37,419 nt of DNA from a virus, in the IMG/VR virus record IMGVR_UViG_3300030090_003419, positions 1 to 37,419 of that record, one strand, 5' to 3'. Made by a program: the position numbers and the translations under genes. Shown here piece by piece: positions 2,057-21,091 of the stretch. Each line of letters begins with the position of its first letter. Position 1 is the first letter of the stretch. The notes under the pieces were generated by a model. That model saw only the letters and a program-made list of their open reading frames with translations, searched no databases and was not told where the DNA came from.

Positions 2057-2487
2057 TGACTCTTGTGTTCAACACTGATTCCGTTGCTGACCAACTTTCA
2101 AAAGAAGAAGGATATCGACGTTACGTTTACCTAGATCATCTGGGCTATGAAACGATTGCGTATGGGCGTTGCATTGCAGAAGGCGTCGGCTATGGCATTG
2201 ACGAGGAGGAGGCGCGGTATCTTTTAATGAGAGACATTGATCGCGTCAAACGTTCATGTGCTGATGCCTTTGATTTTTGGGAGGATGTATCGCCCAACAT
2301 TCGAGAAACAATCGTGATGCTTGTCTTTCAAATGGGGCTTGCTGGCTATCAAAAATTTACAAAGCATCTTCGTGCGATTGCTGACAAAAATTTTGACGAA
2401 GCCGCCGCTCAACTTTTAGATTCAAAGTTTGCCAAACAAACACCGGCTCGCGCAAAGCGTATGGCCAAACGGATTAAACGCGGTTGA
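2056..2487 (+). CDS. Endolysin, T4-type lysozyme (glycoside hydrolase 24)
   Basis: 143 residues, preceded by a strong GGAGGTG ribosome site. The catalytic triad of T4-type lysozymes is visible with correct spacing: E18 in KEEGYRRY, D27 in YLDHLG and T33 in ETIAYG (T4 E11, D20, T26). The protein hydrolyses the glycan strands of peptidoglycan. No signal peptide or SAR anchor is visible, so export should depend on the holin. It is close to the usual length for the family and ends in a basic tail (RAKRMAKRIKRG). It closes the lysis cassette that begins at 866. Confidence 0.9.
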   Translation: MTLVFNTDSVADQLSKEEGYRRYVYLDHLGYETIAYGRCIAEGVGYGIDEEEARYLLMRDIDRVKRSCADAFDFWEDVSPNIRETIVMLVFQMGLAGYQKFTKHLRAIADKNFDEAAAQLLDSKFAKQTPARAKRMAKRIKRG

Positions 2488-2813
2488 GATTTCCAAAACA
2501 CGTTAGGGGTGATCTTTGTGAGGCCATAGCGCTAAAAGAATTAATCTCTCGCGGGTATTGGGTCTTTAAATCAGACTTAACACACAGTCCTATCGATATT
2601 ATTGCTGTTGCTCCTGGTGGCAATGTGTTAATGCTTGATGTAAAGCAAGAAGCCAGGAGAGTTTTAAAAGATCGAAAACATCTTGGCCCCTGTCGTATTC
2701 ATCGTGTGCTGAGCGAACAGCAAAAAAAACTCGGTGTCCGGATGTGCTATGTCAACCTAGACACCGAGGAAATTTGCATCATCCCAAGAGACGGATTGAC
2801 CGGGCCGAGTTAG
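2484..2813 (+). CDS. Small PD-(D/E)XK nuclease
   Basis: 109 residues from TTG 2484, which overlaps the lysozyme stop by four bases. No in-frame ATG precedes the motif region, so TTG is preferred. The fold signature is clear: E13 in GDLCEAIALKELISRGYWV, D38 in SPIDIIAV, and D52-x-K54 in LMLDVKQE, with the usual helix-strand spacing of Holliday-junction-resolvase-like nucleases. Such enzymes cut DNA using metal bound by the acidic residues. Whether it resolves junctions or attacks host DNA is unknown. Its 3' end overlaps the 3' end of the leftward LexA-like gene by 35 bp, tail to tail. Confidence 0.75.
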   Translation: MRFPKHVRGDLCEAIALKELISRGYWVFKSDLTHSPIDIIAVAPGGNVLMLDVKQEARRVLKDRKHLGPCRIHRVLSEQQKKLGVRMCYVNLDTEEICIIPRDGLTGPS

Positions 2814-2994
2814 TTTTGGTCAGATGCCCCCGGTCTGCAAGATTGTTAATGTGTGCTGTAACATTGCTTGGCGATTTAATATTACACGCCTCCATAATTT
2901 CCCTATAGCTTGGAGAATATTCGTGCCGTTGAAACCAACTCCGCAGAAAATTCATAATTTCAGTTTGGCGTTTTGTAAGTCCTCGCTTTTCCAT
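2779..2994 (-). CDS. LexA-type winged-helix DNA-binding protein without peptidase domain
   Basis: 71 residues. The pattern LTKRQTEIMNFLRSW...EYSPSYREIMEAC...SPSNVTAHINNLADRGHL is the N-terminal winged helix of LexA repressors. The wing and the L-x-x-x-G-x-L turn are intact, and the protein ends right after the domain (RSIRLLG). The autocleavage and dimerisation domain of full LexA (about 200 residues) is absent, so it cannot be a classical SOS-cleaved repressor. It is the last gene of a leftward unit and starts exactly where the YqaJ-like gene stops. It could compete with host LexA at SOS boxes or repress phage promoters. The DNA-binding call is firm; the target is unknown. Confidence 0.8.
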   Translation of the reverse strand: MEKRGLTKRQTEIMNFLRSWFQRHEYSPSYREIMEACNIKSPSNVTAHINNLADRGHLTKTNSARSIRLLG

Positions 2995-4001
2995 TAGATT
3001 GCCTCCTGATCTTTTGTCTGGATTATTTTTAAAGTTTTTGAACGACGCGCTGGAACAGCCTTGCGAACATGCTCTTTGATGGCGTTGCTCATGCCCCAGC
3101 TAACTTCGGCTATCACATCGCCGTTGCCATCTTTCGCTAAAGCCATGTCGTGCTTTCCCATGTAGTCCATGATCCGTGCGGTGTATTTTGCCTGTAGATC
3201 CCTCACCGCTTTTTCAGTGCGCTTCGCTTCTTGAAGATCAAGCACCATTTGAGAAAGTTCATCGTCGAGGTTGACCGGCTCAAGACCTTTTTCCGGCTCA
3301 TCGTAGGTCGCCGCGGCATCGTTGACATGCAGTGCTGGATACCAATCGCGCAACCCTTCTTTGCGATAGGTGTCGATTCGACTCTGAAAATCAATTACAT
3401 CTTGTTCAATTTTCATTTGCGTCGCTTGGTCTTGGCTAATCAAAAATGTGTGGAGTGTCGTGCCATAACTGGTAAAAATTGCTGACCAGCGATAGCCAGT
3501 GCACATCATCAAGCCCTGGCATTGAATTGGCCCCCGATATGCTCTCGGCTCTTGCGAAACACGATCCTGAGTTAATTTTGCTTCAGCAACACCAGGGCCA
3601 ATGAGTTCAATTTCGTCTTGGCCAATGACAAAAATTCCCTTCGACGGTTCGCTTGTCATTATCCGCCCATCACCTTCAAGTATCCCGTCTAAAGAACCTT
3701 GCAGGGGTAGGGTCGGATGCACAACACGCTCAGTAATTTGTGTGTCAATTTCTAGCATCAAATTTTTGGCGCCCTCGTTGAGAATAAAGTTCTCGTTGTG
3801 GTTGCCCGCCCGTGTTGCGAAGTTGTCTACACGGTTGGGCGCCGCGCCATTTGTTTTTGAAGCCTGACGATCAACCGCCTCAAAGCTAGACCGGAGTTCG
3901 TCATTTGGTGTCGAGTAGGAGCTAATCCCGAACAATGCGGGAAGCCGACTGCAACTCATTACTGTGTCATCGGACAGCTTGCCTATGATTTGATCGCTCA
4001 T
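2994..4001 (-). CDS. YqaJ-type viral recombinase (PD-(D/E)XK exonuclease)
   Basis: 335 residues. The YqaJ or lambda-exonuclease-like core is recognisable: R64-AGNHNE, D105 in QGSLDGILEG, E140-x-K142 in GVAEAKLTQ, then GPIQCQGLMMCTGY with Gln160 and Gln162, followed by a long helical C-terminal part with a coiled-coil-like stretch (about 245-285). Enzymes of this type resect double-strand ends 5' to 3' and work with a single-strand annealing protein. No obvious annealase is adjacent, though the SSB-like gene at 7447 could take part. The gene sits between the LexA-like gene and a small membrane protein in a leftward unit and overlaps both by one base. Confidence 0.75.
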   Translation of the reverse strand: MSDQIIGKLSDDTVMSCSRLPALFGISSYSTPNDELRSSFEAVDRQASKTNGAAPNRVDNFATRAGNHNENFILNEGAKNLMLEIDTQITERVVHPTLPLQGSLDGILEGDGRIMTSEPSKGIFVIGQDEIELIGPGVAEAKLTQDRVSQEPRAYRGPIQCQGLMMCTGYRWSAIFTSYGTTLHTFLISQDQATQMKIEQDVIDFQSRIDTYRKEGLRDWYPALHVNDAAATYDEPEKGLEPVNLDDELSQMVLDLQEAKRTEKAVRDLQAKYTARIMDYMGKHDMALAKDGNGDVIAEVSWGMSNAIKEHVRKAVPARRSKTLKIIQTKDQEAI

Positions 4002-4331: not shown

Positions 4332-5429
4332 TTACGTTCCAGTGTCAAACATTTTAGTTGCGGCGCCGAGGGCTAATCTGGCTCTCTCGGCCTTGCGTGT
4401 ATATAGCTCTGCCTCTTTGATATCCAACCAACCAAAGAGCGCCATAAGCTCATTCGCGGTGGCCCCGTTTTCAGCGGCATGAGTCGCCGCGGCCTTCCGG
4501 ACTCCGTGACAAGAATAACCTTTTTCGATCCCGGCTCTACGCGCATCTTCGACAAAGCGTTGGCCAAAACCTTTGACGGTAAACGGCATACCAAAGCTCG
4601 TAATGCAAAATGTAATCTCGCCGGTTTTTGTGGCTGATAAAACTTCTTCAAGCGGCGGCACAATTCTGACAATCGTGGGGTCTTTGGCGTAACGATCCCG
4701 CCCTTTATATTCTTTCCATTGCAAAATTCTGTTACCACCGCGTGTTCCGATATGCGGTGGGCCAAGTCTGTGTGCGTCTGAAATTCTCGCTCCTGTGTAA
4801 TATAAGAGTTTGAGCATAAGGTGTGACATTGTGCCGAGCGGGTAAAAGCCAAGGAATTGTGCAATCTGCTCACGGCTCCAAATTTTAATACCGTCGGTTT
4901 TCGTGTTGAGCTGTTTGACAACTTGCCGAACTCGCGCATCGCCGCAGGGGTTTGTGTCAATCCAGCCCCGCAGATTTGCAAATTCCAGCATGTATCTAAT
5001 ATTTTTGTAACGACTTTTTGCCGCAATCGGATAACCTTCAGCGTTCTTTGCTTCGATAAGCTCGTTGATTTCTTTGAATGTAAATTTTCTAAAATCTTCG
5101 TTGGCGATAAGCGAAAGAAACTGCTTGATAATCCCTGTCCGATTTGTTTGGGTCTTAACGTTAAGTTGTTTAAATTGTGCAGACGCCTCGTATTGGCTCC
5201 AAAGCCACCGCCAAGTGAATTCTTTTTGAAGTGGCTCTGCCAAACTACCGAACCGCTCCAGGCACTCCGAATACTCGGCAAAGAAGGCCGCGCTTCCTGG
5301 TGCGGCATGGAGGCGTTGGTTTGTTTCATTGCCATTAACATCGACGCGCCGGAAGTAGATATAGACGCGCCCACCCCGACCGGTTTTTGTAGTGACATAT
5401 GGCAGTTTAGTTTTTTCCATTGCATCCAT
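4332..5429 (-). CDS. int: Tyrosine-type phage integrase
   Basis: 365 residues. The N-terminal half holds an arm-binding-like region and a SAM-like core-binding domain (about 65-165, with QTNRTGIIKQFLSLI). The catalytic domain shows R215 in YYTGARISDAHRLG, K242 in WKEYKGRDR as likely beta-hairpin lysine, H308 and R311 in SCHGVRKAAATHAAE, W334 in LFGWLD at the second-histidine position, and the nucleophile Y343 in AELYTRKAE. This is a complete active site, so it should be functional for integration and excision. The start is ATG 5429 or ATG 5420; no strong ribosome site decides. A tRNA-like attP follows its 3' end. A 350-codon open frame in +1 (5425 down to 4373) lies inside it, treated as a shadow. 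Confidence 0.92.
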   Translation of the reverse strand: MDAMEKTKLPYVTTKTGRGGRVYIYFRRVDVNGNETNQRLHAAPGSAAFFAEYSECLERFGSLAEPLQKEFTWRWLWSQYEASAQFKQLNVKTQTNRTGIIKQFLSLIANEDFRKFTFKEINELIEAKNAEGYPIAAKSRYKNIRYMLEFANLRGWIDTNPCGDARVRQVVKQLNTKTDGIKIWSREQIAQFLGFYPLGTMSHLMLKLLYYTGARISDAHRLGPPHIGTRGGNRILQWKEYKGRDRYAKDPTIVRIVPPLEEVLSATKTGEITFCITSFGMPFTVKGFGQRFVEDARRAGIEKGYSCHGVRKAAATHAAENGATANELMALFGWLDIKEAELYTRKAERARLALGAATKMFDTGT

Positions 5430-14420: not shown

Positions 14421-14628
14421 ACAGTCCCGTAAAATGTCACTGATTGAGGCGTGGTGTAATGCCGGGATTGGTTTGGTCGTGTCGTGGTTGTTTACGTTTT
14501 ATTGCTTGCCGCTGTTTGGCTATGAGCCGTCAGCACATGCGGCATTGTGGATTACGCTCATTTATTTTTTTCTTAGCATGAGTCGCACTTACGTCTTACG
14601 CAGATTGTTTAGCTGGTATGACAAATGA
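14413..14628 (+). CDS. DUF7220-like two-helix membrane protein
   Basis: 71 residues. The motif QSRKMSLIEAWCNAGIGLVVSW, a second membrane segment (AALWITLIYFFLSM) and the ending SRTYVLRRLFSWY match a short phage membrane family (DUF7220 as I recall it: QSR-x-x-S-x-x-E, and RSY-x-x-RR-x-F). Two transmembrane helices are clear. Function is unknown. It overlaps the upstream gene by eight bases and the methyltransferase start by four. Confidence 0.75.
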   Translation: MSKQSRKMSLIEAWCNAGIGLVVSWLFTFYCLPLFGYEPSAHAALWITLIYFFLSMSRTYVLRRLFSWYDK

Positions 14629-15557
14629 AAGTGATCGATTTATTTTCTGGCATTGGAGGATTTTCACTTGGTCTTGAAGCAACCGGAGCTTTTCAAACTG
14701 TCGCCTTCTGTGAACAAGACAAGTTCTGCCAAGCCGTCTTGCGAAAACACTGGCCAGGAATCCCCATCCACCCAGACGTCAAAACCTTCGACTTCGAAGG
14801 AGAGTGCGACGTTATCACCGGCGGCTACCCCTGCCAGCCTTTCAGTACTGCCGGGAAGCAAAAAGGCACAGCGGATAACCGCCACCTCTGGCCGTCAATG
14901 TTTAAAATTATTGCACAAAAAAGACCCTCTTGGGTTATTTGCGAGAATGTTAGTGGTCACGTCACCCTGGGCCTCGACCAGGTGTTATCTGACTTGGAAA
15001 GTGAAGGCTACACCACAAGGCCGTTTGTTATTCCAGCTTGCGCGGTCAATGCCCCGCACAAACGAGATCGCGTCTGGATCATCGCAAGAAAAAATGTGGC
15101 CAACCCCGAAAGCAACCGAAATCAACGAAAGCGTGGAGCAGTGGCAGAAGCGAAGAAAGAAACCTTCCGCAAAAATGATGGGGCCAACTTTGACGGTAGC
15201 GGCAAAGATGTGGCCGACACCTCGAGCCAACGAGCCAGGCAGGACGACAAAAGGCTATGGACGTGGGTTGGCAGAGTTAGTGGAGGGCAAGGAACAGGTG
15301 GAGCAGAAAAGCCTGACAACAGAAGTTATCGACAACATGGGTGGCCGCAAAGCGACAACGGGACAACTGAACAGTGCCTGGGTTTGCCGATTGATGGGCT
15401 TTCCAGATGGCTGGCTGGAGATTGGGAGCGAGGCGTTCCAAGAGTTGTCGAAAAAGAAGAAGGCCGCAAAATGAAATTACAGGCCCTCGGAAATGCAGTT
15501 GTGCCACAGATTGTTGAGCAAATTGGTTTGGCAATTATCGCGGCGGAACGGCAATGA
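14625..15557 (+). CDS. C5-cytosine DNA methyltransferase
   Basis: 310 residues. Motif I is DLFSGIGGFSLG (residues 5-16), motif IV GGYPCQPFS with the catalytic C70, motif VI CENVS (E107), and motif VIII NAPHKRDRVWIIA with R147 and R149. A short variable target-recognition region follows. Motif X is LGNAVVPQIVEQIG near residue 290. All core motifs are present, so it should methylate cytosine C5 and protect phage DNA from restriction or mark it. No matching restriction enzyme is nearby. Between motif I and the end of the variable region the +1 frame is also open for over 260 codons with conserved-looking sequence (see separate entry). Start and stop overlap the neighbours. Confidence 0.92.
   Translation: MKVIDLFSGIGGFSLGLEATGAFQTVAFCEQDKFCQAVLRKHWPGIPIHPDVKTFDFEGECDVITGGYPCQPFSTAGKQKGTADNRHLWPSMFKIIAQKRPSWVICENVSGHVTLGLDQVLSDLESEGYTTRPFVIPACAVNAPHKRDRVWIIARKNVANPESNRNQRKRGAVAEAKKETFRKNDGANFDGSGKDVADTSSQRARQDDKRLWTWVGRVSGGQGTGGAEKPDNRSYRQHGWPQSDNGTTEQCLGLPIDGLSRWLAGDWERGVPRVVEKEEGRKMKLQALGNAVVPQIVEQIGLAIIAAERQ
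14668..15474 (+). CDS. Overlapping +1-frame reading frame within the methyltransferase gene
   Basis: 268 codons from TTG 14668, which has a textbook GGAGGA seven bases upstream (formed by the Gly-Gly codons of motif I); TTG 14653 is an alternative. The product reads like a phage protein I associate with methyltransferase genes. It has ITATSGRQCLKL, then ARMLVVTSPW, STRCYLTWKVKATPQGRLLF, two copies of MWPTP (MWPTPKATE and MWPTPRANE), LTVAAK, and TGQLNSAWVCRLMGFPDGWL, ending ELSKKKKAAK. The last motif resembles the L-N-P-x-W-V-E-W-L-M-G-F-P-x-G-W segment of proteins annotated with phage DNA methylases. Either two proteins are encoded here, or the +1 frame is a relic or by-product. Long +1 frames also occur elsewhere in this genome (inside the integrase), so length alone proves nothing. 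Confidence 0.35.
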   Translation: MVLKQPELFKLSPSVNKTSSAKPSCENTGQESPSTQTSKPSTSKESATLSPAATPASLSVLPGSKKAQRITATSGRQCLKLLHKKDPLGLFARMLVVTSPWASTRCYLTWKVKATPQGRLLFQLARSMPRTNEIASGSSQEKMWPTPKATEINESVEQWQKRRKKPSAKMMGPTLTVAAKMWPTPRANEPGRTTKGYGRGLAELVEGKEQVEQKSLTTEVIDNMGGRKATTGQLNSAWVCRLMGFPDGWLEIGSEAFQELSKKKKAAK

Positions 15558-20017: not shown

Positions 20018-20274
20018 TGAATTGGGATACATTACTTTCACCACCTCCAACTAACATCGAACACGAAATAGACGAAACGGACAAACTTTACGCCCAAGTC
20101 TTTTCGACCCGTGCAGGTAAAAAACTCCTCGCACATTTACGCTCTGTCACAATCGAACAACCGACATGGTATCCGGGCGAGGACGCCAGCCACGGATATG
20201 CGCGTGAGGGGCAAAACAGCCTTATCCGCGAAATAGAACGGCGTTTAGAAAGAGTAAGGAACCAAGATGGCTGA
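20017..20274 (+). CDS. Bbp19-like conserved phage protein
   Basis: 85 residues from ATG 20017 (TGATG overlap with the portal stop); GTG 20014 is possible. The pattern YAQVFSTRAGKKLLAHLRSVT, EQPTWYPGEDASHGYAREGQ and NSLIREIERRLERV matches a short family (Bbp19) I recall next to portal and scaffold genes in BPP-1-like podoviruses. Its role in the virion or assembly is not established. It overlaps the scaffold start by eight bases. Confidence 0.75.
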   Translation: MNWDTLLSPPPTNIEHEIDETDKLYAQVFSTRAGKKLLAHLRSVTIEQPTWYPGEDASHGYAREGQNSLIREIERRLERVRNQDG

Positions 20275-21091
20275 AGAAACGACGACCGCTGAAGTCGATA
20301 CCCCCGAAGCAGGGGCCGAGGAAAGCGAAACTCAGAGTTTGTTAAGTGCAGAACCCGTTGAGCAAACAGAGGCTAAAAAAGAGGAACCTGTTCCACATTT
20401 GGCACAAGAGACAGACGATCTCATTGAGGCAAAAGAAACCGCACCGGCAGAACGCCCGGAACACATACCAGAGCGGTTTTGGAAAGACGATGCGATAGAT
20501 GCCGAGGGTGCGGTTAAGGCATACACCGAATTACGCAAGAAGATGGATTCTGGAAAGCATAAGGCACCTAAGGATGGCAAATACGACATGGAGTCAGCGA
20601 AAGGTCTTGATGTCGAGGGTGAAGATTTTGCAGAGTTTTTAGATTTGGCAAAAGACGAAGGCATGTCACAAGGCATGTTTGATCGCCTTACAAAGTTTTG
20701 GCTTGATATGACAAGTGAACAAAACCAGCAAATCCAATACCACCGCGATGAGGAAATGAAAAAGCTAGGGCGCAACGCTGACAAAGTTATTGAGTCGATG
20801 GATGCCTGGCTAACGCGGCTGAATAGCGCTAAAGTTCTTAACAATGACGAGCTTTCGGCTTTGGCTAATGCGTCAACAAATGCGGCGTTTATTTCTGGCC
20901 TAAATAAAATTCGGCGTTCATATAATGAGCCAGATATCCCAAGTGTTGGCGTGATGGAGCCGGACAATATTGGTATGGATGATATTGAGCAAATGATGAA
21001 CGACAGCCGGTATGGAAAGGATATGGCTTACACCCGCCAGGTTGAGCGCAAAGTTTATGAATTGCACGGTGAGAAAGCTGGAACTGCCTAG
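20267..21091 (+). CDS. Capsid assembly scaffold protein
   Basis: 274 residues, AAGGA upstream of ATG 20267. The first 75 residues are acidic and low-complexity (EETTTAEVDTPEAGAEESE). The middle has PERFWKDDAIDAEGAVKAYTELRKKM, a motif shared by scaffolds of T7-like and related phages, followed by PKDGKYDMESAKGLDVEG and helical coiled regions. It would guide procapsid assembly and then leave or be degraded. Its position directly before the capsid gene and the acidic, helical composition support the call. Confidence 0.8.
   Translation: MAEETTTAEVDTPEAGAEESETQSLLSAEPVEQTEAKKEEPVPHLAQETDDLIEAKETAPAERPEHIPERFWKDDAIDAEGAVKAYTELRKKMDSGKHKAPKDGKYDMESAKGLDVEGEDFAEFLDLAKDEGMSQGMFDRLTKFWLDMTSEQNQQIQYHRDEEMKKLGRNADKVIESMDAWLTRLNSAKVLNNDELSALANASTNAAFISGLNKIRRSYNEPDIPSVGVMEPDNIGMDDIEQMMNDSRYGKDMAYTRQVERKVYELHGEKAGTA

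Follow-up and report, generated by a model that had tools for sequence, protein, structure and literature searches.

Multispecific C5 methylases of the SPbeta-type Bacillus phages carry several small contiguous recognition modules per enzyme. Two-polypeptide C5 methylases are known as well, M.AquI and M.EcoHK31I among them (PMC3404938). In M.EcoHK31I, the large subunit has motifs I-VIII and X as well as the predicted TRD, and the small subunit has motif IX (PMC3404938). M.AquI is split in tandem after motif VIII, with motifs I-VIII on one side and TRD, motif IX and motif X on the other, and is not described as nested. Lee et al. 1995 are said to have found the small EcoHK31I gene embedded in the large gene but read in a different frame, and M.EcoHK31I thus provides a precedent for the nested two-subunit architecture.

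The window, i.e., the whole stretch of DNA that was analysed, is an entire IMG/VR virus record of 37,419 bases. Its frame 0 at 14625-15557 encodes alpha, a C5-cytosine DNA methyltransferase of 310 residues, and a +1 gene, beta, lies wholly within alpha and ends just 5′ of alpha motif X. The elements of the locus are as follows.

14625-15557, plus strand: alpha, C5-cytosine methyltransferase catalytic subunit, 310 aa (PF00145, PHROG 363, AF2, Foldseek)
14637-14660, plus strand: alpha motif I, DLFSGIGG (sequence; invariant columns of alignment A3)
14655-14660, plus strand: GGAGGA, candidate ribosome-binding site of beta, 7 nt 5′ of TTG 14668 (sequence)
14668-15474, plus strand: beta, nested +1 gene with TTG start, 268 aa, putative recognition/motif IX subunit
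14680-14694, plus strand: QPELF, beta residues 5-9, weak putative match to the sliding-clamp motif
14820-14846, plus strand: alpha motif IV with the catalytic PCQ, GGYPCQPFS (sequence; alignment A3)
14943-14951, plus strand: alpha motif VI, ENV (sequence; alignment A3)
15051-15074, plus strand: alpha motif VIII region, APHKRDRV (sequence; alignment A3)
15097-15210, plus strand: beta cassette 1, WPTPKATEINESVEQWQKRRKKPSAKMMGPTLTVAAKM
15211-15366, plus strand: beta cassette 2, beginning WPTPRANEPGRTTKGYGRGLAELVEGKEQ...
15367-15417, plus strand: motif IX-like block of beta, LNSAWVCRLMGFPDGWL (aligned by hhalign to canonical C5 methyltransferases)
15477-15515, plus strand: alpha motif X, LQALGNAVVPQIV, directly 3′ of the beta stop (sequence; G289 and N290 invariant in A3)

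The window follows the split of M.EcoHK31I (and M.EaeI; YGGCCR), with motifs I-VIII and X in alpha and motif IX in beta, where the assignment of motif IX to beta combines a weak direct match with the evidence of fused homologs; the likeness is one of described architecture. Two differences are apparent. M.EcoHK31I is part of a restriction-modification system, whereas no partner endonuclease was identified beside the window's locus, and the TRD, attributed by the literature to the large subunit of M.EcoHK31I, apparently belongs to beta here. With M.AquI the window shares the split after motif VIII, but its motif X stays in alpha, so it is not of the AquI type. When M.EcoHK31I itself was sought in E. 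coli genomes by means of DNA of the E. coli phage K1ind2, only prophage-like relatives were found.

Membership of alpha among C5 methyltransferases follows from the presence of motifs I, IV (PCQ), VI (ENV), VIII and X, as well as from matches to PHROG 363 (E 7e-74) and PF00145 (E 1.2e-45), the latter covering residues 1-185 only. Not only the Pfam match but also most PDB matches end near motif VIII, and Foldseek comparison with M.HaeIII and M.HhaI matched only about 163 columns. The AF2 model is confident over most of residues 1-165 and over 280-310, while residues 181-274 have pLDDT below 50 and are predicted to be disordered. TRD and motif IX, looked for in the alpha chain using Pfam and AF2, are absent. 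Thus, alpha is devoid of half of the normal C5 enzyme.

The +1 frame is open from stop to stop over 14635-15471 (279 codons, or 273 if counted from TTG 14653), and its translation contains TATSGRQC, STRCYLTWK, two MWPTP segments and GQLNSAWVCRLMGFPDGWL. Re-reading of the sequence found the coordinates, these strings and the seven-base spacing between GGAGGA and TTG 14668 to be correct as given in the initial annotation. In most relatives a +1 stop is located near alpha codon 55 and beta starts from ATG or GTG just 3′ of it; SD-like sites precede the beta starts in 35 of 57 relatives (61%) as compared to 17% of control ATG/GTG codons. The window's beta is one of a group that are extended at the N-terminus. 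Over this stretch the extra similarity is modest overall and clear in L007, L096 and L098 (z 3.2-3.5), the nearest relative L007 retaining the same TTG with GGAGGG upstream. TTG 14668 together with GGAGGA may be regarded as the best candidate for the beta start.

Comparison of the +1 translation with Pfam and NCBIfam matched no model, and a PDB sequence search with beta gave no significant match. Beta matches PHROG 1008 (E about 7e-27, profile positions 9-284 of 329), and all 50 aligned members match; PHROG 1008 holds both nested and separate forms, while PHROG 1008 (beta) and PHROG 363 (alpha) are both annotated only as "DNA methyltransferase". The relationship of beta to methylases is most evident in actinophages. 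Unlike the window's enzyme, Babsiella gp54, Shauna1 gp67 and Jabberwocky gp4 are methylases encoded in one frame as a single chain; in them, motifs I-VIII are followed by [LW]PTP repeats, a block of the MMGxPxGW type and motif X; the catalytic half, the PTP repeats and this block have their likeness in the window. In Eurydice (gp80/gp79) and Upyo (gp54/gp53), the two halves are adjacent genes with beta-like gp79 and gp53 downstream. The beta profile, built from nested beta proteins only, matched the single-chain enzymes with E 8.6e-18, 1.1e-9 and 9e-9 and the separate downstream genes with E 6e-15 and 2e-14, and none of the canonical methylases was matched in this search. The WPTP...LMGFP module of beta is thus the C-terminal half of single-chain actinophage methylases. 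Homologs of the +1 product, which the initial annotation had proposed to look for, were found in nested, separate and fused forms, and the last two rule out mirrored misannotation as their origin. Alignment by hhalign placed LNPxWVEWLMGFPxGW of beta against canonical motif IX (LTPRECFRLQGFPD; LTPRECxRLQGFPD) with a score of 22.5, exceeding all of 60 column-shuffled controls (17.3 at most), although the match is weak in absolute terms (P 0.03, or 0.005-0.016 with a shallower set). For beta by itself AF2 gave a poor model (pLDDT 59), which has no fold match in PDB, and a TRD fold in beta is thus only putative.

Two further relatives may be considered as natural conversions of the nested form into an AquI-like split, judging by their sequences. 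In L134 (Brevibacillus, 2238-3522) and L190 (a Bacillota genome, 3790-5089), alpha closes after motif VIII and past its end the alpha frame has 11 and 4 stops, respectively, while beta remains free of stops and extends, in its own frame, through motif X. They are in fact natural experiments: an alpha frame freed of its motif X duty decays, and that of beta does not. AquI-like gene content, with motif X in the small subunit, is confined to L134, L190, Eurydice and Upyo.

Relatives were gathered with alpha only, so that their +1 frames were not found by searching for +1, and the count of openness takes relatives having at least 200 alpha codons on the contig. Every alpha-found relative with enough sequence keeps the +1 frame open over 165-391 codons. 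This holds also at 36-37% GC, in genomes whose +2 frame contains 29-43 stops and is never open beyond 39 codons; the +1 stops in relatives that would have spoken against the initial proposal are thus not what was observed. In the window, 1 of 1000 shuffles preserving the alpha protein and its codons reaches 279 codons (mean 136); the length of the +2 frame agrees with the shuffles. Across 34 distinct genes, window included, mostly 0-2 of 1000 shuffles are as long as the real +1 frame (16 in the worst case), and the +2 frames are chance-like. The p-value of the window alone is weak evidence, because the integrase gene (4332-5429, minus strand) also possesses a long +1 frame, open over 351 codons and equalled by 0 of 500 shuffles, that looks unconstrained. 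This frame is still open in L241, its one relative; substitutions there amount to 34/16/77, which is a normal pattern, a search for homologs of the frame found none, and it is probably unconstrained. It is comparative evidence that decides the reality of the beta frame, and chance or GC artefact as a source of the +1 frame is ruled out by shuffles, relatives and substitution patterns taken together.

The strongest form of doubt would be that the +1 frame is a passive shadow, kept open by conservation of the alpha protein and by base composition. Conserved DNA common to both frames and the accidental-looking 351-codon frame of the unrelated integrase gene are in its favor, and still it deserves practically no credence. 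Alpha-preserving shuffles abolish both openness and similarity. In shuffles of 88 relatives, compared with the window's +1 translation, over alpha residues 53-155 the +1 identity is 0.457 against 0.271 expected, while over residues 1-52 observed and expected values coincide (0.266) and the motif X stretch is at expectation as well, despite similar alpha identity in both stretches (0.59 for 1-52 and 0.565 for 53-155). Mapping with ten-residue steps shows that this excess begins at alpha residue 61, lasts until about 150 and returns at the WPTP block and at LNPxWVEWLMGFP. The substitution pattern, moreover, flips within the overlap. Before the overlap, 24 independent close pairs show.08/.04/.23 substitutions per codon at alpha positions 1/2/3; the corresponding values are.20/.13/.18 inside the overlap and.09/.07/.25 past its end. 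The two closest pairs have counts of 18/1/3 and 19/1/1 inside (the latter for L105/L121), almost confined to alpha position 1, the wobble position of beta, whereas the integrase contrast retains its normal pattern. At the catalytic motifs alpha constraint dominates, while in the recognition region beta-silent changes are enriched (1.47) and alpha-silent ones show no enrichment (1.00), so that over the latter alpha mostly rides along. Constraint on the synonymous codons of alpha, which the initial annotation had suggested should be checked, is limited to the part shared with beta. Its claim of selection on both frames in many phages passed each of the computational tests that it proposed. Position-specific substitutions and the occurrence of the family as separate and fused genes have already refuted the shadow, and it is near certain that beta is a real, conserved and selected protein-coding gene.

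As to its role, beta is very probably the recognition subunit of the same two-polypeptide C5 methylase, nested in the catalytic gene. This reading follows from the module being fused or separate in actinophages and from beta running into motif X in L134 and L190. Alpha would provide cofactor binding and catalysis (motifs I-VIII) together with motif X, its middle of about 90 residues being a mere spacer over the DNA encoding the recognition part of beta, while beta, translated from its own start and ribosome-binding site, would contribute target recognition by means of the WPTP array plus motif IX. The two chains are supposed to assemble as a heterodimer into an active methylating enzyme, which is probably an orphan phage methylase shielding phage DNA from host restriction. 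Beta had been described as an overprinted methylase partner or regulator; the first part stands, most likely as the recognition/motif IX half, and the second probably gives way to the lack of a TRD in alpha and to the fused homologs. A regulator or another partner acting outside the catalytic complex is improbable: about 100 N-terminal residues of beta (PGS..KMTATSGR..CYLTWK), unmatched by the beta profile in single-chain enzymes, would fit such a role, but alpha has no TRD, the C-terminal module of beta occupies the TRD/IX position of the single-chain enzymes, and in L134 and L190 it passes into motif X. There is likewise only a slim chance that ribosomal frameshifting fuses alpha motifs I-VIII with the recognition part of beta in one chain. 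Eurydice gp79 would agree with this, since it starts at the junction, overlaps gp80 by 26 bases and goes without the N-terminal part; the nested form, however, would need two shifts because its motif X is in the alpha frame, and the N-terminal part of beta over motifs IV-VIII shows conservation of its own and has start codons with SD sites ahead of it. If the recognition-subunit reading is true, the overlooked protein probably holds the sequence specificity, and predictions of specificity for these methylases have to be made from the +1 frame.

The core of beta, which lies between its N-terminal part and the block of motif IX, is built from 1-8 blocks that are some 30-50 residues long and open with WPTP or a variant of it. 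A survey of 509 blocks from 175 proteins revealed block types recurring across phages in differing orders and neighborhoods, and all 51 of the 51 types present in at least three loci occur in at least two combinations of position and array size. Cassette 2 of the window is 88% identical, over the scored start, to cassette 5 of 7 in L056 and L058. For pairs of cassettes picked by nucleotide identity alone (clusters picked by beta identity being circular), substitutions at beta positions 1/2/3 are.11/.06/.30, which is the signature of ordinary coding in the beta frame. By analogy with multispecific C5 methylases, the natural reading is that each cassette may serve as a target-recognition module and that swaps would change the specificity of the phage. 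At the level of sequence a shuffled dual-frame array is well supported, while its function in specificity is putative. Each swap would also have to keep the alpha frame open, alpha needing only an open spacer. Modularity of this kind is shared with the multispecific methylases of SPbeta-type phages, which are not nested. New here is the core of beta as an array whose WPTP cassettes are reshuffled from phage to phage and coded in the beta frame. If true, this would be one of the rare instances in which long dual coding on one strand, clearly selected in both frames, extends over a large family and has modules shuffled inside the overlap, making questions of overlapping-gene evolution directly testable.

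One more feature is found near the N-terminus of beta. A Q-x-[S/D/T/N/E]-L-F motif is present there in 63 of the 103 viral relatives (shuffles predict 1.7, maximum 6), and the same type of motif in 50 of 73 bacterial relatives (2.1 expected, maximum 7), where it is usually QLTLF at 2-8 residues after the start codon; its position relative to alpha varies among relatives. It resembles the bacterial sliding-clamp consensus QL[S/D]LF (PMC3716654, PMC9690074), and putative docking of beta on the sliding clamp via this motif is a good hypothesis, while the window's own beta has only QPELF, a weak match. Taken as a whole, the proposal of a phage-wide methylase system in which specificity cassettes in dual-coding DNA are exchanged between phages and in which Q-x-x-L-F docks the enzyme on the host clamp for methylation at the fork is put forward tentatively, as a possibility somewhat short of being probable. 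Methylation of new phage DNA at the fork would parallel DNMT1, which binds PCNA (PMC9690074), and a clamp-docking methylase subunit, if true, would be a bacterial parallel to the DNMT1-PCNA pair.

Two proteins seem to be encoded by each of hundreds of methylase genes in phages and prophages, and often only one of the two is annotated. Annotators had noticed beta before, since that of K1ind2 is labeled "Mte8-like" and that of Paenibacillus phage Shelly "g55 internal gene"; among open-licence papers none was found on the beta family, its cassettes or the N-terminal motif. In E. coli chromosomes (L212-L218), nested beta is open over 223-343 codons in 7 of 7 loci and only alpha is annotated. At one of them (L212, 2363-3532), annotation presents alpha as incomplete and in two pieces, while the alpha frame has no stop and beta is open over 343 codons; this alpha is probably intact with an unusual middle, as far as can be read from the sequence. 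Five copies of the methylase locus with identical match statistics, several of them about 46-48 kb apart, occur in a Roseovarius MAG (OX638333.1, L177-L181), which would fit either a tandem array of prophages or an artefact of assembly. In Streptococcus phage IPP54 (L226, 1501-2639), the annotation divides a canonical-looking C5 methylase into two neighboring genes, the break falling in the recognition region and motif IX being of the ordinary LTPRECWRLQGFPD kind. Elsewhere in the window, at 20267-21091, an antisense frame over a gene is open for 231 codons, a length reached by 1 of 500 synonymous shuffles.
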